A stretch of DNA of 64,000 bases from Sycon ciliatum (taxonomy: Eukaryota > Porifera > Calcarea > Leucosolenida > Sycettidae): the NCBI RefSeq assembly GCF_964019385.1, contig NC_088645.1, positions 16,962,100 through 17,026,099 of the forward strand. Reading direction: 5' to 3'. Of the stretch, positions 2,572 through 62,503 are shown piece by piece. The notes under the pieces were generated by a model. That model had not been told where the DNA came from. It did no database searches and saw only the letters and a list, made by a program, of their open reading frames with translations. Each line of letters begins with the position of its first letter. The first letter of the stretch is position 1. A program made the translations under genes and the position numbers.

Positions 2572-3840
2572 AGCCTCTCTTGCGCAGACAGCATAAGTGC
2601 TTCCCTGTCCAGGATCTTCAATGAGACCTTACAGACAGACCTAGTACCAGATATTGACAAGTTGGCGAGCATTTGTCCAATATACAAATCTTGTAGTCAA
2701 ACAGACCCCTCCAATTACAGACCCATGTCCCTCCTTCCGATCGTCCACAAACTGCTGGAGCAGATCGTCCACGCCCAGCTACAGTCCATTCATAAAAAAA
2801 TGGGTCCTGGCTCTGGCGAGCTCCCGTATTTGGCGATTTTTCGTGATTTCATCGTACACAGTGCAGTGCTGCGAACTTTGAAATTTGAAAAAGGGTCCAA
2901 AAAGGGTGCCTGAACTGGGGTTCGAACCGCAGAATGCACTGTTGCAGGCGGGGTCAAACGGCCTGGATTTTGATGGTTTTTCCCAATTCAGTGCTTTTGG
3001 GGCAAAACCTGGCCGAAATCCTATTCTTGCTATGGCTTGCTTTTTGGACAAAAAAACTTCAGAAACATAATTGGAAGAGGATTCCATATGGGATTGCAGA
3101 AAAAAATTCTAAAAAAACTCAACGTTTGACCCATTTATGGCCAAAAGCTAGAAGTTCATTTTTTCTGAATGGACTGTAGTGCAGCACATAGCCAAAACAC
3201 CGGAGCTTGGGGTTATGCCCCCTGAGCAGTTCGCATACAGAGCAAACCATTCCTGTGAAGATGCACTTGAGTTGGCCATCGACCGCTGGCAGCGAGCGCT
3301 TGACGAAGGCCTGTACTGTGGTGCTGTGTTTGTCGATATGTCGAAAGCCTTCGACAGGGTTCGACACAACCAACTTCTTCTCGACCTTCAGGCTATTGGC
3401 GTGTCGGGTGTGGCTCTACGGTGGTTCACGAGCTATCTGGCTGATCACTATCAGCGAGTCTCAGTAAATGGCGCCCTGAGCAGTACCACAGAATGCTCCC
3501 GATGTGTCCCGCAGGGGTCTATACTCGGGCCACTCCTGTTTTGCGTTTAAGTACGTGATATACCCGCCACATTTCAGTATTCGCAGTGCCAGCAGTATGC
3601 CGACGACATTACCCATTGCCGATCCAGTACTGATCTCGACGACCTTGTAAGGAAGCTTAGTGCAGACGTCAGTATGTTGGACACATATTTTACTGACAGA
3701 GGGCTTCTGCTCAATCCCCAAAAATGCACTTTCTCGTGATTCGGAGAAAGGGGCAGGTAATTCCACCCACGCTAGCCATTCAGTGTGGACCTAACATGAC
3801 CCCAATGCCGCAAAGCTCACAGTACCTCCGTTTCGCGGGG
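2572..3840 (+). pseudogene. broken non-LTR retrotransposon reverse transcriptase
   Basis: Fragment of LINE ORF2. The first part (about 2572-2781) carries the NYRPMSLLP fingers motif; the second (3179-3730) carries FAYRANHSCEDA, the motif A aspartate in FVDMSKAFDRV, motif B PQGSILGPLLF and the catalytic YADDI at about 3596-3610. It is interrupted by a MITE at 2782-3176, by an in-frame stop at 3548-3550 just after motif B and another at about 3738, and it degrades through frame shifts by 3840. The style (SKAFDRV, PQGS.LGPLLF) suits CR1/Jockey-group LINEs. No endonuclease domain or 5' end is present. It is dead and could not supply transposition functions. Confidence 0.9.
2782..3176. mobile_element. 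395-bp Tc1/mariner-type MITE nested in the LINE
   Basis: TIRs of about 22 bp (CAGTCCATTCATAAAAAAAT at the left; the reverse complement of the right end starts CAGTCCATTCAGAAAAAAT) are flanked by TA at 2780-2781 and 3177-3178. Removing the element and one TA copy brings the two RT halves into the same frame without loss of a codon, which fixes the borders. A B-box-like GGTTCGAACC palindrome lies at about 2919-2928. No transposase. Confidence 0.9.
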
Positions 3841-9003: not shown

Positions 9004-15161
<6,158 letters not shown>

Positions 15162-16251
15162 CTTGAAAAGATCTTTTGGAACGTAAAAAGCAGGAAGAAC
15201 GAATGTAGACCAATGGCTTTCCAGAAGGAAACTCCAGCTAGTACAACTACAAGATCCGACTTCGGTAGTTGTGCCGAACGGAGAATTTTCTCGAGTCCTC
15301 TACCCCATCCCCAACCCGGACCCCGGCCCATCGATCCCACAGTGCCAATGCATGAATGCTCATGAGAATCACGAGGCACGCCATGTGCATCATGTGCATC
15401 CGTCAAGGCGTCAACCGCGTCTGAGCAGGAAAATCACATCGGTTCCGGTCAGCTTTAGCTATTCAATGGGATTTTAAGGGAAATTCCATGGCAAACCTGA
15501 CTGTTCTCGCTTTCTGCTGGCTTCAAGTCAAGATGACCACGTGAGTTTTTGACACCATCACTCATCATGCATCAGCATGATGCCATGGCCTAGCGCGGGC
15601 TAGGGCAGGGGCCTAGGATGGCTAGATTCTAGGCTAACGCGCGTATGCCATGCATGATTTTGTCAACTGGTGAGTGGTGGCACGCACGCGTGCACGACAC
15701 TGGCCGCAAAAACTGAACAGTCATGCACGCTCGGCTGTTCCTGAGCTGATAATGAGCCTTGTGAGTGAAGCCTGAATAGCCTTGTGAGTGAAGCCTGAAT
15801 GAAGGCTGTTGCTGAAGCCGAGTGTAGGTTGTGAATGTGAATGTAGAATTCGCTATTCACCTCCAAAAGCAAAATTTACGGTTACCGGTATCTGAATATG
15901 AGGGGAAGGACTGGAATGCAGGTAGGGTGATGGTGACATGGGTGAGTGGAACCAAGAGCGCATAACCTGTACTCTTGGTGGAACTAGAAAGGTAGACAAA
16001 TAAAATAAAAGATCAGCTATGAAAAGTGATTTTTAGTCGATGATGTCTTTATGATGGTACCAATAGGATGACTCGATAGGTGCGAGGGCAAGTTAGTAGC
16101 AGCAAGAGTACTCTTGATAGTAGTGCAATAGACGCTTTATCTTTTTTTAAATTTTTAAATAGCACATACATGTACATGTACCTGTAATATTATGTGAGTC
16201 TGACATACATGTACGTACTCTGCAGAGGCTGGTCATGCATACTGAACTTGA
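15162..16251. other. upstream region of cathepsin L
   Basis: Would hold the cathepsin L promoter on the minus strand. No convincing TATA box or other core element is seen within 200 bp of the start codon. A GTGAGTGAAGCCTGAAT-type short direct repeat occurs at about 15760-15800. Confidence 0.35.
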
Positions 16252-51772: not shown

Positions 51773-52157
51773 ATGGAGGCGGACGACAGGCAGTCCTCCG
51801 CGAGCACAAGAAACAGTACCAGTGTGTCAGGTTCAAGGTGCGTAGAGGTCACGACCTGTTCCAGATGCCAGCAGTGTCTAGCATCCTCCATTCGTGCAGA
51901 TAGCTTAGCGCTGCTCCGTTCAGCACAACGTGGAACTGAGGCGGCTGAGGCGGCACGGCCAGCTACATCAGCAAGGCCAGAGCATGGTCTCTGTCACAGA
52001 TCCGGACGACAAAATGGCAGAAGAATATGGACGTTATGGCCGAGCATCTTCTCGGCCTCGCTATTACTGCTACTGGCAATTGGACTGTGTCAGGGCAGAG
52101 CAACGTTACCTGCGGAGAATAGCAGCAGCAGTCTCGGACAACCCATGTCTGAAACAG
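51773..52157 (+). CDS. astacin exon 1 (N-terminus, membrane segment)
   Basis: Codes residues 1-128 plus one base; donor GTGAGT at 52158. It is Ser/Arg/Ala-rich with a CSRCQQC cluster, then the hydrophobic segment. The open frame continues upstream without a stop to about 51533, so the start is inferred from the TATA box and is the least certain point of the model. Confidence 0.75.
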
Positions 52158-55100
52158 GTGAGTTACATTTCTAGTTCATGTTCCATATTCACGTAATAAA
52201 TACTTGAAATTAATTGTTTTACTGTTCTGAACAATCCTTAGTGAATACGCCTAGGGAGATACAGGGCTTACTTTGTTTTGTGTGGATGGCAAATACCATG
52301 ATGTTGACGTCTGCTCACAGGCTCTCAGCATGAGGCCATTAGAGGTACAATGAAGTGGTCTTCAGAAGTAGTGCGCGACTCCAGCAATATAGCTACGTGT
52401 AGCGAACAGTTCTAATATGCTTGGTCGTTCCTATTGCCATTTTTGGCTGATTTATGGCCTCTGTACTAGCCGACGCGAGGCATCTGGCTCCAGGCCTGGC
52501 TTCGGATCGTGTAAGCAGGGTGTTTTGCGTTCGTTTGGAAGTAGTATGTGTTGATCGGAAGCGGTGAGCAAACGGCAATCATTCCTCCAGAACGTTCTGT
52601 GGTAAATCAAAGGAAATCTCTAATAATAATTATTATTAGTTTATTTTGTTGAAGCTGGCATTGTGGCCCTCGTGGGCATATCATTACCTAATAGCGCTTT
52701 AGTAACAAGTAAATCCTCGGATTTCAAGAGACTTCGGACAAACAGACGCCGGAATTTAGTGTTTTCTGCGGCTTGGTGTTAGTGGTCGTGATGGGGCTGT
52801 GCGTGTGTGTGTGAAGAAACACAGCACCCTCCACTGGTAACAGTGCCCCCCAGGGATAACAACTCGGCTGGCCTCTCTCCTCTTCTTCACCCCGCAGTGG
52901 CAGTGCCTGGCACACAGCATTCCCCATAGCACTCTTGCCGCAATTAGCTAGAGGTTTGACGAGCACTACAAGTCCTAGAGAATGGTGGCGGGCTAAGTAA
53001 AGGTTGGCATGGAACAGGATAAGCCTGTCTGCCACCTGCCAGTATCAACAAGAGGCAAGCGCATGGAGTTTGGCTTGTCTAAGTGTGCAGAGCAATAGGC
53101 AGGGCCGCAAGACTTAGTATTCCAGCGGAAGATGATATTTCAAACTACTCCCATGGCTCTGGTCCCTTGCATGCCCCCTGCATTAGCATAATCAATGCGA
53201 AGACTACAAGTACGGTACAATACCGTCATGTACATGTGCATGGTAGATAATGAGGGTTACACATGAGAAGATTGCTGATTTGCAGAGCGCATGAGTGCGT
53301 TGAAATGAATACCATCCTGGACACAGTGCTACGGCAAAGGTGTGAACGCACTCGTCATCCGTGGATCGAGTTTCCTTTTTGCCTCCCTTGACCTTGGGAG
53401 CAATTGCTTAAAGGTGATATCGCTACCGTCCTGTGCACAGCGCATACAAGTACAATGTAGCAGCGATTTCATTCCGAGTTGGTAGCTAGGGAAACTGCTA
53501 CTTAAACTTAAAGAACTTATCCTCGGATTGAATTACACCATTTGCAGGTATTTTGGACACGCACCATGATGCAAGTGGATAGTGTTGAATGAGAATGGAA
53601 CCATGGCAATAGACGTACATGTACATGTAGATGTACTAGCATGGTCCTAGAGTATACGTGCATGTGCTTGTCCTATCTACATGTTGGTGTAAGTGAAGGT
53701 GAAGGGATGCCGTAGTGTCTTGGCATGCAGTACTGCGTGCGGTTCTTGGGAGGCAGATGTGGACATTGCAGCTCATGGGTTTGTCGTTGTTCAAGTGTGA
53801 TGTCGTAACATGGTGTAACACAGCTTTTCATGACTAGGACACTGCTCAGTCACTGCTGTGGTATGCTTGACACATGCCACAGGGTGTCTGTGCACAGTCC
53901 TGCTCGGGCCACAGCTTGGTTGTAATGGACGCTACACACACACCTGCACCTGCTGCATACTGCATACTGCACATTGCATGCCTCTACTGAAACTCAACTA
54001 ACGTGTCTATGTACACGTACAATCATGTACATGTGTAGGATAATGTATGTGTCCAGCTGTGACACTGTGTTCTTGTGACCGCACATGTACGTGTACATGT
54101 ATGTAAGTAATCGTAGCACTACAACGATACATGCTGCTACAAATGGCAGCATGCCACCTACTGTGTTCTCACTACCACCAACTCGCTAGCCATGTGCTGC
54201 TGCATCAGTTTACTCCTGTGTGCCCCGGTCACAGTATGGATCAGCTAAGTAGTACTGGTACATAACTGGAGTACATGCATGCACAGAATTGTTATAGCCA
54301 AAAGGGCTGCTTGTACGACTATGTCTATGAGTACTCAATATATACGTGTTCCTGACATCTTGGCTGGAAACAGGTGGCAAAGACAGACCACCAACGGCAA
54401 CTCCCTTCTCACAGTATCAAACACAAATCATTTCCGTGCATTCCAAGCTGCTCTGTGTCAGCACGGGACATGTTTGTGTTTGATGAGATTAGGAGTGTGC
54501 TGAAATGAAGAGTTGTTCAGTTTATTTGTACTGGAACATCTTGTGGCTGTTTATGGTCTAGTGTGGTTTTGTTGGAACAGGTAATGTCCACAGGCACAGC
54601 ACTTTGGCCGAGTAATGACTAATGGGTTCATATGCCAGTCACGCCAGTAGCAGTTATGCGTGAAACTAGTGGTATGGTTTAGTGTTGAATAGCTACTAGT
54701 ACCTGCTGCAATAGTAAACTATAATGATCTGAGCATCATTTCCTGGAGTAAAAAAATGATATTGCTGTATCAGTGCACTAGTAGTAGTACCCTGCACTTG
54801 TTCAGCAAAATAGACTTGAGAGCAGCTAGTGACTAGTGTGTGTGTTTGTGTCTGGAAATATAGCATGGTGTGAGTTTGACTAGGTGTGACAAGGGTCTGC
54901 TAGTACTGTACTTCTTCTCTGCAGTGTACGAGTGTGTAGTATGGTCAGCTCAAAACTGCTTTCACTGGTGCCTGTGACTGTGTTGGAGAAGGGCAGGTTT
55001 TGCTCAGCACATGTAGTAGATCAGCTAAACAACTAGCTTCTGAGTCCTGTCCTGACCAGTGTTGTACAGTCATGTGCTTGTACTCTCTGAGCAGCAGTTC

Positions 55101-57360
55101 CATAAACACACTGTTCTATATCAGGCACGTCACCATGACAAGGTGTGACTTTTCTCAGCTTCACGCCTGTGTCTTTATCATGTGTCATCTAGTCACAACC
55201 CTATTTCACGCCAGCTCCAACAACTGACAAGACTGCGTAGCTGGGGCTGTTGCTATAAATAATTATGTACTAGTAATATCTGGAATGTAGTGCTAGGGAC
55301 ATGGAATCACGCTATGGAACAACCTGCAACTATAAAATCTAATGATGAACTAGTGGTACTGTAAAGGATGCTGGCTGTCACTGGGCCATGCTCTGTAATC
55401 AAGTTTTAGTTGTTGTCACTTTGTTTTGATTTGATGGCAGCAATGAGTAACTCTGCGATAGTCTGCTACTGACTGTGAGTGAACCTGATTGAGCATTGAC
55501 AGCATTGACAGCATTTTTCTCTTGCAATGCTGCTTGCAATCATTTGCCTTTCCTGTCAGCGATTGATGATGCACAATACAAGTAGGATTGCCAAGAATGC
55601 CTGCAGATGAGCCAGGTTGGAATGTACTGTATAACACCTTTATTTCGGTGTAATTTAAATTTCGGTAACTTCGGTACTGTAGTCCGAACAGAACACTTTG
55701 TTATACAGACTTGGGCAAGCAATAGTGTTATTAGTGGGGGGGGGGGGGGGGGGGACGTACATGTATAATGGACTAGCTTGTGCCACTGCCGGGGCAGATA
55801 TACTAGAGAGGGTTCATCGATGACATCATCAGCATTACTACTAAGACATGGGCTCTTATCTTACTGCCGTGGAAGTTGGTGCCTGCATATTAGGCTACTG
55901 TTGAGTGTTTGAGCAGTATCAGCCGAAAGCAAGAATAATAAATTAGGAGATAGCATAAGCATAGCAAGAGAGTGTGGCAGACAAGAGGAGATGCCAGATG
56001 GCGGCTGAGCTATTTCTGCAGTATACCAGTGAGTGAGTCAGTGGGGTAGTATAGTAGTCACCAGTACTTGATGACCAGGGCATGGTGGTGTGTCTATGAC
56101 TCATCTAATAATTATTATGAGCACTCCCTGCCATGCCACTCAACCCCCTGCTGCTGCTGGTGGTCCTACTCTGCATGATATACATGTACATTGTACATGC
56201 ACTGGTAACAGCGCAGACTGCCCTCTCACCCCTTCCATCAGAGAAGTGCTACTACTAGTAATACTAGTGCTAGTACTGAGTGCAAACTAGAAATTCTCCA
56301 CTGTCAGTCCTAGTCACATGGCCGGGCTGACTAAGAGTAACACATTGTGAGCATGTACAAAGTCAGTATCACGAAAGCCATGCTCCAGTACTTGAGCGTG
56401 CTGGCACGTACTTGTGACTTTGAAGCGACTGTACAATCGGTACAATCGGCTCACGCCCTATGACCGCCGTGGCAGAGCCAAGTGTTCTGAGCCCTGTATT
56501 CCAAATATTCCAACGCGGCAACACCTCAACACAGGGTCCATAGTACTGCTAAGTCATACACTGTATTCGGGTACTTCTAATCCACTGTATTGGGTGCTCT
56601 GGTATACGATACTGATGAATAACCTTGTCCAATTATAGCAAATGGCAAGTCACTTTAGTAGCCAGTTACTGGGAGTCCCTGATCTACCCTGTCACTGTCT
56701 GAGCAAAGTGCCTAAGTATGTTACTAAGTGCTGAATTCCTCAACTCATCTAATTTGCCTCAGTGATAAGTTGGTTAGTTGTGTTGTCGTATGGCCAGCAG
56801 AGTGTCAAAGGGTGTTTCCCCTAGCCTGGCCATGGAACCAGAAGTCCGAGAAGAGGGGAGAAACTCGATACTGTGCCGGCTACACCCACTCCATTCCTCC
56901 AATCATGAGCCATATGCCAGTGTGCATGTATGCACTTGTCTCTTAGTCATGCAAGTGCCTTCCTACTGCCTTGAGTCAGGATTGCATCCTGATAGTTATG
57001 TCTGTTTAGTCTAGACTCTTCAGCTAAACCTTTCCTCTGACGTCTGTAGACTGGTGCTGTTTGCTATAATTTGCAAAGAGATCAGTTCGTCAGCCAGTGC
57101 TGCTGAAACGTGCACAACTGTTCACCTTAGTACAGTGCGTGGAATTATGATTTTGGAATTAGATACTAGTCTTGTGCCTTGGTGAGCTGGCTTTGGACCG
57201 GGCATTGTTGCATGCAGCCTGGCCTCATCAGATGCACACACATGTTGCTCAACTTCTTCAGAATGACAATCTGACTTGGGCTATTGTATTGGAGAGTGCC
57301 ACTTCCAAGCGCCCTGTTCTAAGAGAGAGAGAGATGAGAGATGAGGGGATGTGTCCAAGA

Positions 57361-57445
<85 letters not shown>

Positions 57446-60400
57446 GAAGCTCTAAGAATGACCATGTACAAAACAAACTTGGACAGTTTGGGCCAGAGAG
57501 CTGGACAGGGGCCCAAGAGCTGTGTAATACTTGTAGCTAGTCCAGTATGTGCCAAGTGGTATCCACTGTCTAAGCCGAAGTGCCCTCTGAAAGATCAGTG
57601 CTCATAACCTACTCTCCGTTGACAAGAGCTTCAGGAGCATGCTTCCATGTTCTCTGTACCTATCTTGCCATAGCACTGCAGAATGCTATTGTCTAGTGTT
57701 ATGCTAATAGTGACGCAGACACAAATAGCAGTTGTATTGTAGTTCACATTGAACAGTGCTTGAGGCAGTGTGAGTTGTAGTCTTGACCCACGCACAACAA
57801 TGTCGATTTCCAAGTAGTCATTGCTGCAACTGTGAAACCCACTGACCTCAACGCCCACACAATGTCTTTTGCATAATACTGTCCTGTGGGGGGGGGGGGG
57901 GATTGGAAATGGGGAAATATGAGATAGGAAGGCAGTCGGCTTCTTTTACGCTGACATGCAGGTGTTCTGCATTGTCCACAATCATGTACGGCACTGCGAT
58001 GCCATGGTGCAGTGCATACATATAGTCTGTCTGGTTACATGTATATTACATCACCAGACATCAAGGTATTAATTTGCACTAGTGCTCTGCACACTGGCTG
58101 CAGTGACATTGAATGATTAGGAGTGGCGTCGTAACCTCTTGCAATGTGTTAATATAATCAGCCTGGCATGACAGCTCCATGACATGCACACAGCTTGGGT
58201 CCAGTATACCCTTGCGATTGGATAGCCAACGTAAATTCACCCAAAGTCAATGCATAGCTTAGTGGTCATAGACGCTCTGCCAGTGTGTAGCGGCTATGTG
58301 TACGTTTTATTGTATTTGTCCTGGTTGGTGTAACTATGTACATGTACATGTGTGGTCAGTGAGTGTTGGCGTGTATGATAGACATGTCGATCTGCCCAGT
58401 CATGTATTGTCTCCTCCATGGTCACACATACTGGCCTACATGATAGGTAGTACAATGTCATGTACTGCAGTATTAGATCCTGCTGCATTTTCTAAGAGAA
58501 AATCAAAAATCCAGCCGACTCCTTCATGTGTCCTGAAATCTGATCGGAGAGTACATGTCATGTAGATCTGTTATGGCTCTTACTACCAATCTCACCCAAT
58601 AGCATCCACCTACTCTATCCAGCCTGGCTAATATTATCATTGCGATAGCAATAAATTGTGACGATTTGATGTAGTGAATCGCTTGTGGAGTCAGTTTGAG
58701 GACGTGACACCAACCAGGCAGCTGCTGCTTTGCCCGAGGCAATGAATAGATTGTCATTCCTTAGTTAGTGTTCACTGTTGCCTGCCAGCATACCTCTAGC
58801 CAGCAATGGGACCTCAGAGAGAAGTCAAAGACATAAAGCCACTATGCTGATACATGCTCGTACACAGTGGGATTTTGATTGTCTGCACACAGTCTACCGT
58901 ACTGGGACTGAACCATCCATATACAGGTACAGCTGTTTGGCCTGTAGGCTATAGCAGTTGGCTTACAAGTACTATTGGGCAATAAAAGCTGTGGCCACAG
59001 GGGTGCACATGTAGTCACAATTGCATTGGTTTCTTGACGTGCAGCGACCGCCACGCCATGGATAATATAAAGGAGATAATTATGTCGTGCGCAAACTACA
59101 GTTTCCCTTGCTTGAAGGGTTTGACATGATGCTTAGCAAGTCAAGGCAGTCAGTGTGGTTGAGAAGAAGCATACGCAGGCATGTACCTGCGAGAATGCCT
59201 TTAGTCACCACCTCGGCTGGAACCACTCTATTTTAGGCGCAGTGTTGTCAGCAGGTGTATCCCTAGAGGCTACACCAGCATGGATATTGTGCATGTAACG
59301 AAGAAGGTAGAATGTTGCTCTGCTCCTGGACTCTGATCAGCTATAAAACATCTGCCCTGTAGCCAGCATGGTTACTGCCTCAGTCATTCCCAAGAGCTGT
59401 GTGTACACGCATTCCTCGGTGGTCTTGCCTGAAGCAGAAAATCCGTACCAGTGGAATTGCCCATGAAATGCTGGATGGCGTCCATGGTGAAAGGCAAAAG
59501 AAACTTTGGTCGATTGTCTTGTGAAGGCATTGTTTGTGTTATACGACGCATAGTTCACTGTTACTGATTGGACAAAATACTCAAACTTATACCCCGCTGG
59601 CTATTGGGTATCTCATGTGCTTCGAGTAGGAACAGTTTCCAAGGATCATACACAATTGGTCATTAGCCACTTTTGAAGGGTAGCAATTTCCGGTCGACTC
59701 TTTTTTTAATGTGTATTCGCCTTCTAGCGTTTCCGGGGGCAATAAGAATTGTATGCATGACAGATAAACACAGATGAGGATGAGCTGTGAATGTGAAAAT
59801 CGGGGTGCAGCAGAATCTACTTTACAAGCGCCTGCAGGCTATGCCTTACTGCTCAGATGTCTGTGTGTTATACAGTTTCATTTATGCAGCTATATCAATT
59901 GGCTCGTTGAAGTGTTTCGTAGACACCAACAAACCAGTTACACACATTACCGTAGTCGCCTCTGTCTCTCTTTCTATATCTGTCTCTTTCCCAACGATCT
60001 CGTCCCTGTACACGCTTGAAGTGCCTGCATATGCTGCTGGATGAGATCATGGATTTGTTGTCCTCCTCGGCAGACTGCAGTACTGTTGTGTGCATTTACG
60101 GTTATGCCATGATCTAAACTGAACCATTTTCTCTTCCCGTATGTGTGTGTGTTGCTATTCGCAGACTGGAGAAGACTCTACGATGAACCGATGGTAGAGG
60201 AAGACGAGATAGCTGAGATCCTGTCACGAGAGCCAGTACGTTCAGTTGGAGATGTACTGGTATCAGACATCAGTATAGCTGCCAAAGCCACAACAGCAAA
60301 ACAAGAGAACGACAGCAGACATGGCAGTGGTGATAAGTACGCCGGTAAACCCAGGCCAGACAGCCGGAGAAGTGCTGGGAAAAGCAGAAATCAGAGACGA

Positions 60401-62503
60401 GAGTATGCGTCAAGCTTCGACTGGGAACCAAAGCAACATCACCCGCGGAGACATCGGGGCCATAAACAACGCTGGAGGCGCAATATAGGCAGCTCATCCG
60501 CTGTGGAGCTGTGGCCAAATGGTACCATTCCATTTGCCTTCAGCAGCCGCCTGAAAAATGGTAAGTTTTGGAATGTTGTATACCGTTCAGTGGTGCTCAA
60601 GGAGCCTTCAAGCGGCGGGCTTGTGTTGCTACGGTGCAGCTCAATAAACAGCCCCACCCTCCCTCGCCCCCATCCCCACCCCCCTCGCCCAGCAATGCTC
60701 ACTCTGGAAATTCAGATTTTGCTTGGAGCATAGAAATGCAAGTGCCCCGTGTGAAAATAGAATAGAGCACCTGTGTATACGTGTGTGTGTGGGGGGGGGG
60801 GGGGGGAGGGGGAGTTAGACCAAACACTATTATTATCTGTGTTTGTTTCTGATGCCGGTATATTCCTAAGCTTACTGTCTTTCATGTGTGTGTGCTTGTG
60901 TGTGTATGGGTATGTGATTGTGTGTCTACAGCAAATCGTAATGGAACCAACACTGGAGATTACGACCTGATACGCATGGCGATTCGGAAAGCCATGCGCA
61001 TTTGGGAGGACAACACGTGCATTCGATTCGTACCATACACACAGAAGCTCTACCAGAATTGGATAGTTTTCAAGCCACCAGAACCAGGCAATGAGAACAG
61101 GTAAGGCGGTACAGAGAGACCCTGATCGAATTCATCAACTACTTCATTATGTGAGACTTTGCTACACAGTCTAGACTCCTTTTCTTTGTACTGGGCGGAT
61201 GGATCCACAAGCAACAAAACGGGACTGTATTCGTATTGGAATAAACGTAATTGTGATAATTTTTGCGGTCTGCATGTGTTTGATGATGTGGCGAATGATG
61301 CCTGTTGAGTTGCTCACTTTGTGCTTGGATGCTTCTTGTTGTCGGTGTTGTGTACACAGGCGCTGCTCGTCCTACATCGGTATGAACTATGGCATACAGC
61401 CTATCTATCTGGGACGCGACTGTCAATATGATCCGGGCGTTATCATGCACGAACTCGGACACGTCATCGGCTTCCATCATGAGCAGAAGCGGCCAGACCG
61501 CGAGAAGTTTGTGCGCATCTTCTGGAAGAACATGGTGGCTGGTAACTCGACGCGCGAGCAGTTTGACATCAACTGGCAGATCAAGACGTACAACGAGTCC
61601 TATGATCTGGACAGCATTATGCATTACGGCAACTACTACCTGAGTAAGCGGCCGGGCTTCTTGAAGACACTGGAGTCCAAGGAGAACCCAGACCGACGTC
61701 TTGGACAGCGCGAGCGCCTGACATTGTCCGACATTGCACGGACAAACAAGATGTATGGCTGCCCGTACCCGGAGCAGTGCATCACAAGAAAACACCCGAT
61801 CAGATCGGGTCGTCTAGTCTCACTCATGGTCAAGCACGAGATCAGCAAGAACCTTGAGCACACCACAAAATGGCTGAGCTGTCGTCGTCAAGACGGCCGG
61901 TGTCGACGCATGAACTGCGGTCAGCTGGCCGAGGGCGACTGCAACAGCTATCCACGCCACTGCGGCAGCGAGCTGTTCATCATCGAGCGCGCGCCGGGCC
62001 GCCTAGCCAATCACAAGGTGTACGGCACCGGGCCAGTCATGCTGCGCGCTCACGTGCAGCCGCATGTTCGTGGCGGACGACGGCGTCGCCGTAGCAACAG
62101 CACGCAGCACGGCTTCCTGACCTGCTACCAGAAGAACGGACGACGTCAGAAGGAGTGCCGCATCGTGCCCTGTGAGAGCAACAACCCGTATAAGGACTGC
62201 CCGCTGGCCAGGTTCTTCTTCCTGACGGCGCGACGGAACGCGACACGCAATCTCAGCGGAAACATACAGGCCATGGACGCCACGGCTGCTGCTATGGAGG
62301 ATGAGATCCTAGAGAACACCAAGGTCGGCCTGTGTCAGGAGGATGATCACAATCGTATTCAGTGCGTGCACTGCCAGAGCAAGAACCTGTGCATGCTGGA
62401 AGACTGTGGCACACGACAGCAACCCAGTGCTGTGTGCGAGGAGTTCTTCATACAGCTACGCCAGTGGACTATGGCTGTACAGAATAGTATAAATACGACT
62501 TGA
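51773..62503 (+). CDS. astacin/tolloid-type metalloprotease with Cys-rich C-terminus
   Basis: Coding exons join(51773-52157, 60165-60560, 60932-61100, 61360-62503), 2094 nt, 697 residues; phases 1, 1 and 2 all close. M12A zinc endopeptidase, secretory pathway. Residues 89-107 form a hydrophobic segment (SIFSASLLLLLAIGLCQG), a late signal peptide or type II anchor. The pro-region (about 108-234) has SVGD158, a likely aspartate switch, and a furin-type site RWRR234. Catalytic domain 235-451 starts NIGSSSAVELWPNGTIPFAF; zinc site HELGHVIGFHHE with His347, His351, His357 and Glu348; Met-turn SIMHYG with Met404 and Tyr406; four Cys at the family's disulfide positions (NTC, RRC319, RDC338, YGC451). 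The remainder (452-697) has 16 Cys, an R5 patch (557-561), no CUB or EGF domain, and looks like three repeats. Upstream Met residues exist but lie before the TATA box. Substrate unknown. Confidence 0.95.
52158..60164 (+). other. astacin intron 1, about 8 kb
   Basis: Phase 1 at both ends, so no missing exon is required. It contains a 20-bp perfect palindrome (CTAATAATAATTATTATTAG, 52620-52639), a G20 run (55735-55754), (GT)n at 57367-57444, a G run near 57888 and many TACATGTA motifs. No TE borders or nested gene were recognised. Confidence 0.8.
57367..57444. repeat. (GT)39 microsatellite
   Basis: Uninterrupted GT repeat of 78 bp within astacin intron 1. Confidence 0.96.
60165..60560 (+). CDS. 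astacin exon 2 (pro-region and start of the catalytic domain)
   Basis: 396 nt, acceptor CTATTCGCAG, donor GTAAGT at 60561. It holds the acidic DEPMVEEDEIAEIL helix, SVGD, a long Arg/Lys/His-rich stretch, the furin site and LWPNGTIPFAFSS. Confidence 0.95.
60932..61100 (+). CDS. astacin exon 3
   Basis: 169 nt, acceptor GTGTCTACAG, donor GTAAGG at 61101. It encodes NRNGTNTGDYDLIRMAIRKA through MRIWEDNTCIRFVPYTQ, the N-terminal catalytic subdomain. The upstream intron carries a G16 run beside a GT tract (60780-60806). Confidence 0.95.
61360..62503 (+). CDS. astacin exon 4 (zinc site and C-terminal extension)
   Basis: 1144 nt including TGA; acceptor GTGTACACAG. One exon encodes the zinc site, Met-turn, catalytic-domain end and the full 246-residue Cys-rich extension. 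It is clearly more GC-rich than its flanks. Confidence 0.97.

Follow-up and report, generated by a model that had tools for sequence, protein, structure and literature searches.

The window analysed here, a 64,000-nucleotide stretch of the Sycon ciliatum genome (contig NC_088645.1, positions 16,962,100 to 17,026,099), carries an astacin metalloprotease gene (PF01400, M12A) whose complete catalytic domain is followed by a 246-residue cysteine-rich extension. We found this extension, or tail, to be a real domain that lacks Pfam recognition and makes the gene a new variant of the astacin architecture. Judged from the predicted structure of a paralog, the tail is most likely one beta-trefoil of three lobes rather than three modules. 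Relatives of the gene doubled the tail and lost parts of the protease machinery, a pattern suggesting that the tail has a job of its own. Astacins shape animal matrix and signalling, and where they cut is believed to depend on their accessory domains.

An astacin with an unrecognised cysteine-rich tail

Exons 2 to 4 of the gene, as far as the tripeptide YGC, match the Pfam Astacin family over profile positions 2-188 of 189 (E = 1.5e-45). The astacin signature reads HELGHVIGFHHEQKRPDRE, with HExxHxxGxxH and the family glutamate all intact. The preliminary description of this DNA had seen no CUB, EGF, MAM or TSP1 domain past the catalytic domain. Pfam agreed, returning no family for the extension at E<=5, whether CUB, EGF, MAM, TSP1, ShK or any other, and the paralog modules described below gave no confident match either. 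An NCBIfam match at E = 0.86 was taken as chance.

The extension contains 16 cysteines and is basic, with 38 lysines and arginines against 23 aspartates and glutamates. All 246 residues share exon 4 with the zinc site, as first reported. The spacings given earlier for its three segments were also confirmed by direct reading: C-x6-C-x4-C-x7-C-x6-C closing on ELFII, C-x10-C-x4-C-x8-C closing on RFFFL, and C-x9-C-x2-C-x5-C-x4-C-x9-C closing on EFFIQ. A patch of five arginines had been placed between the first and second segments; the patch is real but sits within repeat 2, in a proposed beta1-beta2 loop (extension residues 106-110). It is no microsatellite because its codons are mixed (CGA CGG CGT CGC CGT), and in the alignment it is missing from all 13 other modules of the genome. 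At a guess, the patch could be a convertase site.

The tail is shared by most of the astacin-like loci found

The genome searched comprises 538 Mb in 313 contigs, and the locus counts are lower bounds. A Pfam profile search gave at least nine Astacin matches and a search with a paralog tail added two further loci, which have the tail behind a truncated catalytic part. Eight of these at least 11 astacin-like loci carry the tail, in 14 modules: one in the window gene, one in L003 on contig C9 and two in each of six genes on contig C7. The six double-tail genes (L005, L006, L007, L008, L023 and L024) are clustered at 15.73-15.84 Mb, within about 100 kb. The tail searches, which score first-look candidates only, did not list the remaining astacin-like loci, L002 and L010 (both on contig C1) and L009 (contig C5). 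Farther along from L002 lies a weak EGF-like stretch under the Pfam cut-off, and L010 has CUB and FXa-type EGF domains close by.

When compared directly, the window tail scored 33.4 bits against a profile of the 13 paralog modules. None of the 995 full shuffles that were scored (of 1000) reached this value, the best attaining 11.7 bits, and none of 1000 shuffles with cysteines fixed did so (best 16.4 bits). BLASTP aligned the window tail with the L003 module at 41.6 bits and 24% identity, with an E-value of 2e-9 for the one comparison. These direct tests clearly point to homology between the window tail and the paralog modules. Nine cysteine columns were invariant in all 10 modules of a first alignment, and nine in all 14 modules of the full alignment. 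The 14 modules could be turned into a family model with which others could look for the domain.

Weak genome matches at L018, L025, L032 and L033 (E 0.5-5.5) were discarded. Stops fall in the matched stretches of L025 and L033, L018 is a 64-amino-acid frame, and L032 lies within a frame of 2342 amino acids that we take, from its appearance, to be Tudor-like. The L003 module was also used in single scans of viral contigs and of a collection of prokaryote genomes; these scans, whose reach is close relatives only, found no relative.

Two astacin sequences of other kinds were also noted. At L013 (contig C1, 5.73 Mb) a degenerate exon of an astacin has the sequence HHLGHVAGLAIH (Pfam 2.4e-7) and lies near CUB and FXa-type EGF exons, a tolloid-like arrangement. 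L012 (contig C5, 12.18 Mb) is an astacin spread over more exons, with SCLHYS in place of SIMHY; a 347-amino-acid frame downstream of it matched nothing credible in Pfam (best E 0.13).

Three repeats in one predicted beta-trefoil

The internal repeat was not significant in the window copy by itself. Its pairwise segment scores were matched by 149, 546 and 382 of 2000 shuffles, and by 1334, 970 and 1672 of 2000 when cysteine pairs were scored zero. We then compared repeat profiles from 11 of the 14 modules, each split by eye into three, with the near-copies L007a, L008a and L008b left out. Repeats 1 and 2 scored 17.0, a value reached by none of 200 column shuffles and none of 200 with cysteine columns held. 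Repeats 2 and 3 scored 18.0 (0/200 and 0/197, respectively). Thus a threefold repeat is supported by the profiles, with repeats 1 and 3 linked only via repeat 2. The earlier suggestion that the three segments are related is borne out for repeats 1-2 and 2-3 with paralog profiles, but not by the window copy alone or by direct comparison of repeats 1 and 3. Neither of the two outcomes that the preliminary description took as refuting came about: Pfam gave no confident hit, and an internal repeat signal appears when paralogs are included.

Every one of the 14 modules consists of three repeats, the third deviating alike throughout. Two cysteines are common to all of the 18 repeats compared, which come from six modules (42 repeats exist in the 14). 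For repeat 3 of the window copy, alignments differ on whether the second of these is C210 or C215. Both cysteines map to the middle hairpin (beta2-beta3) of the strands modelled for L003.

That model was obtained with AlphaFold2 (AF2) using the L003 module as target and 14 alignment rows. It had a predicted local distance difference test score (pLDDT) of 77.2 and a predicted template modelling score (pTM) of 0.79, the pLDDT of the five models ranging from 74.5 to 77.2. It contains 12 main strands in three like units of four, and the order short bridge, beta1, beta2, beta3, short helix, beta4 occurs three times. In our reading, this order is that of a beta-trefoil.

The preliminary description had proposed three related modules. 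An unrecognised, three-repeat cysteine-rich unit does exist, in 8 of the 11 loci found, but its parts would rather be lobes of one domain, as the L003 model suggests. Three independent small cysteine-rich modules, such as derived EGF, TSP1 or ShK-like domains, would suit segments spaced about 60-80 residues apart. However, paralogs gave only zinc-finger-like and THBD matches below the cut-off, the window tail gave no Pfam match at E<=5, repeat number and the deviating third repeat are constant, and AF2 folds the three repeats of L003 as one domain. We consider independent modules highly improbable.

The tail could instead be an all-beta, cysteine-rich domain of three four-strand units with another fold, a beta-prism or a new one, and still serve in binding. 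Three units of four strands are on their own also compatible with a beta-prism, and the Pfam and PDB searches gave no sequence match of the modules to known beta-trefoil families. By contrast, the order and spacing of the strands (V-x-L, L-x-C, hairpin, short helix, F-x-I) resemble those of the FGF, MIR and ricin-type beta-trefoils, and another fold is in our view unlikely.

Most genes of a cluster have lost catalytic residues and all keep both tails

Within the C7 cluster, L005 keeps HELLH whilst L006, L007 and L008 read HQLLH. The glutamate of the zinc motif is the general base/acid needed for catalysis, according to section 2.1 of PMC9848320, and HQLLH removes it in these three genes. In L023 and L024 the first zinc histidine is missing; of the 135 catalytic codons in the zinc-site exon about 75 are gone, the Met-turn included. 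Taken together, five of the six cluster genes have lost either the catalytic glutamate or more than half of that exon's catalytic part. Both tails are kept in all six, in open frames of 477-599 amino acids; the single stop counted in the genome match of L007 is its terminal stop, by reading frame. Since five of six genes are catalytically disabled and both tails are retained, the binding part seems to be what matters in this cluster. Tails kept where the protease looks dead, in a genome in which 8 of the 11 astacin-like loci found have the tail, would offer a clean case for studying the part that an accessory domain plays by itself.

The ratio of nonsynonymous to synonymous substitution (dN/dS) was estimated by the Nei-Gojobori method, without a significance test. 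For the HQLLH genes the catalytic part gave 0.14-0.24, the first tail (A) 0.15-0.22 and the second (B) 0.17-0.31. As these values, 0.14-0.31 overall, lie well below 1, the HQLLH proteins look maintained. For L023 and L024 the ratio was 0.42 in the catalytic part, 0.56 in tail A and 0.65 in tail B.

The HQLLH and truncated copies might be decaying pseudogenes, uninformative on the tail. This would fit the weak constraint in L023 and L024 (dN/dS 0.42-0.65). Against it stand the open frames of all six cluster genes and the low ratios of the three HQLLH genes, and we regard decay as quite improbable. Alternatively, the tail may be regulatory, inhibiting or dimerising its own catalytic domain without an external ligand. 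It lies in the same exon as the catalytic part, behind a short linker, and similar constraint acts on both regions of the HQLLH genes, which would fit such a role. L023 and L024, however, keep two tails with seemingly little left to regulate in the zinc-site exon, and a purely regulatory tail seems rather unlikely.

Between L005 and L006/L007/L008, dS is 0.28-0.39 for tail B versus 1.6-1.7 for tail A, a difference for which gene conversion of the second tail is a likely cause. In a tree of the modules L005b adjoins L006b and L008b, inside the b clade.

A proposed targeting domain

We think it probable that the window gene encodes a secreted or anchored astacin with one disulfide-stapled beta-trefoil as a binding or targeting domain. 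The protein would be made as a proenzyme and act as a secreted or signal-anchored zinc protease, with one beta-trefoil of three repeats of four strands behind the catalytic domain. In each lobe the conserved cysteine pair would staple the beta2-beta3 hairpin. The most likely role of the tail is binding, by which it would tether the protease to, or aim it at, a ligand on a surface or a component of the matrix, much as accessory domains work in other astacins. In the window gene the basic loop of five arginines, together with the basic charge of the extension, could add binding to acidic glycans, although this is a guess. In the C7 cluster the doubled tail was kept while the catalytic part was mostly disabled, which would leave binding as the part that matters. 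We infer the fold of the window copy, the disulfide pairing and the binding function; the fold was modelled for a paralog.

Several results weigh against this picture. A genome search with the window tail at E<=0.001 returned the window itself only, and the window was absent from the matches listed for the L003 tail at E<=10; both searches scored first-look candidates. The label beta-trefoil follows strand count, strand order and threefold regularity judged by eye in a predicted model. With the window module as target and 10 alignment rows, AF2 gave a low-confidence model (pLDDT 32.5, pTM 0.19); 7 of its 8 strands overlap strands of the L003 model in the alignment. At E<=10, none of the 14 modules had a match to a beta-trefoil or lectin family of Pfam, in a search in which HMMER filters discard most matches above about E 0.1. 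PDB sequence searches with a module, two module alignments and stacked repeats gave nothing credible (best E 0.99 and 1.3). Repeats 1 and 3 scored 9.7, and 44 of 199 shuffles did at least as well (53 of 198 with cysteines fixed). In a BLASTP alignment (E 3e-4) the two tails of L005 are shifted against each other by one repeat. The shift is consistent with an internal repeat and also reveals how much these tails have come to differ. The dN/dS values point to weak constraint on the tails of L023 and L024, and the tails of the HQLLH genes are no more constrained than their catalytic part.

A wider reading is more tentative, and we hold it as possible rather than probable. The tail may be a new disulfide-stapled beta-trefoil family that serves as the main astacin accessory domain of an early-branching animal lineage. 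One cluster would then have given rise to pseudoprotease binding proteins with two domains, the second spread among gene copies by gene conversion.

Gene model and other features of the window

All exon borders of the window gene are GT-AG with consistent phases (Table 1). The model is least secure in exon 1. The hydrophobic stretch of this exon is a putative signal peptide or signal anchor, and because 84 residues lie upstream of it the true start codon may differ from the ATG chosen. The residue numbers used in the preliminary description (YGC451, C491, C572, 697 amino acids) agree with a start at this ATG. In exon 2, SVGDVLV is possibly the aspartate-switch region and RWRR possibly a basic cleavage-like site.

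Table 1. Features of the astacin gene, in window coordinates.
Feature	Position	Strand	Basis or remarks
Exon 1 (putative)	51773..52157 (start approximate)	+	ATG, hydrophobic stretch IWTLWPSIFSASLLLLLAIGLCQG; donor ACAG/GTGAGT at 52158 in phase with exon 2
Exon 2	60165..60560	+	Splice borders; Pfam Astacin match starts inside
Exon 2 content: prosegment with SVGDVLV, RWRR, start of catalytic domain			By-eye reading for SVGDVLV and RWRR
Exon 3	60932..61100	+	N-terminal subdomain of astacin catalytic domain
Exon 4	61360..62503	+	Remaining catalytic domain and whole extension; stop 62501-62503
Zinc motif HELGHVIGFHH, then EQKRPDRE	61448..61480	+	Read in sequence
Met-turn SIMHY	61613..61627	+	Intact in sequence
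C-terminal extension, 246 amino acids, proposed single cysteine-rich beta-trefoil	61763..62500	+	Paralog profile, BLASTP to L003, AF2 on L003
Repeat 1 (VSLMV / KWLSC / CRRMNC / ELFII)	61799..61999	+	By-eye split, repeat profiles, strand string
Repeat 2 (VMLRAHV / GFLTC / CRIVPC / RFFFL)	62006..62233	+	By-eye split, repeat profiles, strand string
RRRRR patch in repeat 2, proposed beta1-beta2 loop	62078..62092	+	Extension residues 106-110
Repeat 3 (VGLC / QCVHC / C..C / EFFIQLRQW)	62294..62470	+	By-eye split, repeat profiles, strand string

Elsewhere in the window, a cathepsin-L-like gene lies on the minus strand at 9007-15299, with an I29 propeptide exon (Pfam, 6.3e-16) and a C1 peptidase exon (2.2e-47). 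A large array of cathepsin-L-like exons was also seen on contig C8 at 35.16-35.47 Mb (L049-L053). Of five loci of the array that were read, four have CGSSWAFS, in which the active-site cysteine is changed to serine as in silicateins, and one has CGSCWAFS. The array hints at a sponge, and the CUB-bearing astacin locus points to an animal. A reverse-transcriptase fragment on the plus strand of the window at 3152-3547 (RVT_1, 6.3e-16) is probably the remnant of a long interspersed nuclear element. A long TG/CA microsatellite at 57300-57450 gives artefactual CVCV and HTHT frames on both strands. Rfam found no match in the window, and a search for COX1 gave none either.

Comparison with known systems

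Ricin-type domains are beta-trefoils, and the beta-trefoil fold is old. R-type lectin domains (ricin-B, CBM13-like) would share with the tail the same three times four strands and a short helix before the last strand. Unlike them, none of the 14 modules matches Ricin_B_lectin in Pfam at E<=10, the (QxW)3 motif is missing from repeats 1 and 2, with a terminal QW in repeat 3 only, and the tail has its cysteine pair on the hairpin of beta2 and beta3. Beta-trefoils of the FGF and MIR types have a similar V-x-L ... L-x-C ... F-x-I rhythm, and the basic loop of the window copy is reminiscent of heparin-binding FGFs. The tail differs from both in being disulfide-rich and attached to a protease, and it has no sequence match to them.

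As a fold, a beta-trefoil next to an astacin would not be without precedent, because ricin-type lectin domains are among the many astacin partners listed in the Figure 1 legend of PMC9848320. The word 'trefoil' occurs nowhere in its text. Among the open-licence papers searched, none pairs 'astacin' with 'beta-trefoil', and nothing on the tail domain was found there beyond PMC9848320. Eleven of them contain both 'astacin' and 'trefoil'; in one of these, PMC3204972, the trefoil proteins are of the trefoil-factor type, a different family. Snake-venom metalloproteases, whose cysteine-rich C-terminal domain is mentioned in section 2.7 of PMC9848320, likewise have a C-terminal cysteine-rich part that may aim the protease. 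This is a functional analogy only, as their tails have no Pfam sequence relation to the present one and another repeat architecture.

A further comparison is with the CUB, EGF, MAM and ShKT astacins of family M12A (BMP1/tolloid, meprins, and nematode and cnidarian astacins). The window gene shares with them PF01400, HExxHxxGxxHExxRxDR and SIMHY, a prosegment-like upstream region and the presence of a C-terminal accessory domain. It differs in that its type of tail matches no Pfam family and that, in the C7 cluster, this tail has been doubled and the catalytic part disabled in five of the six genes.
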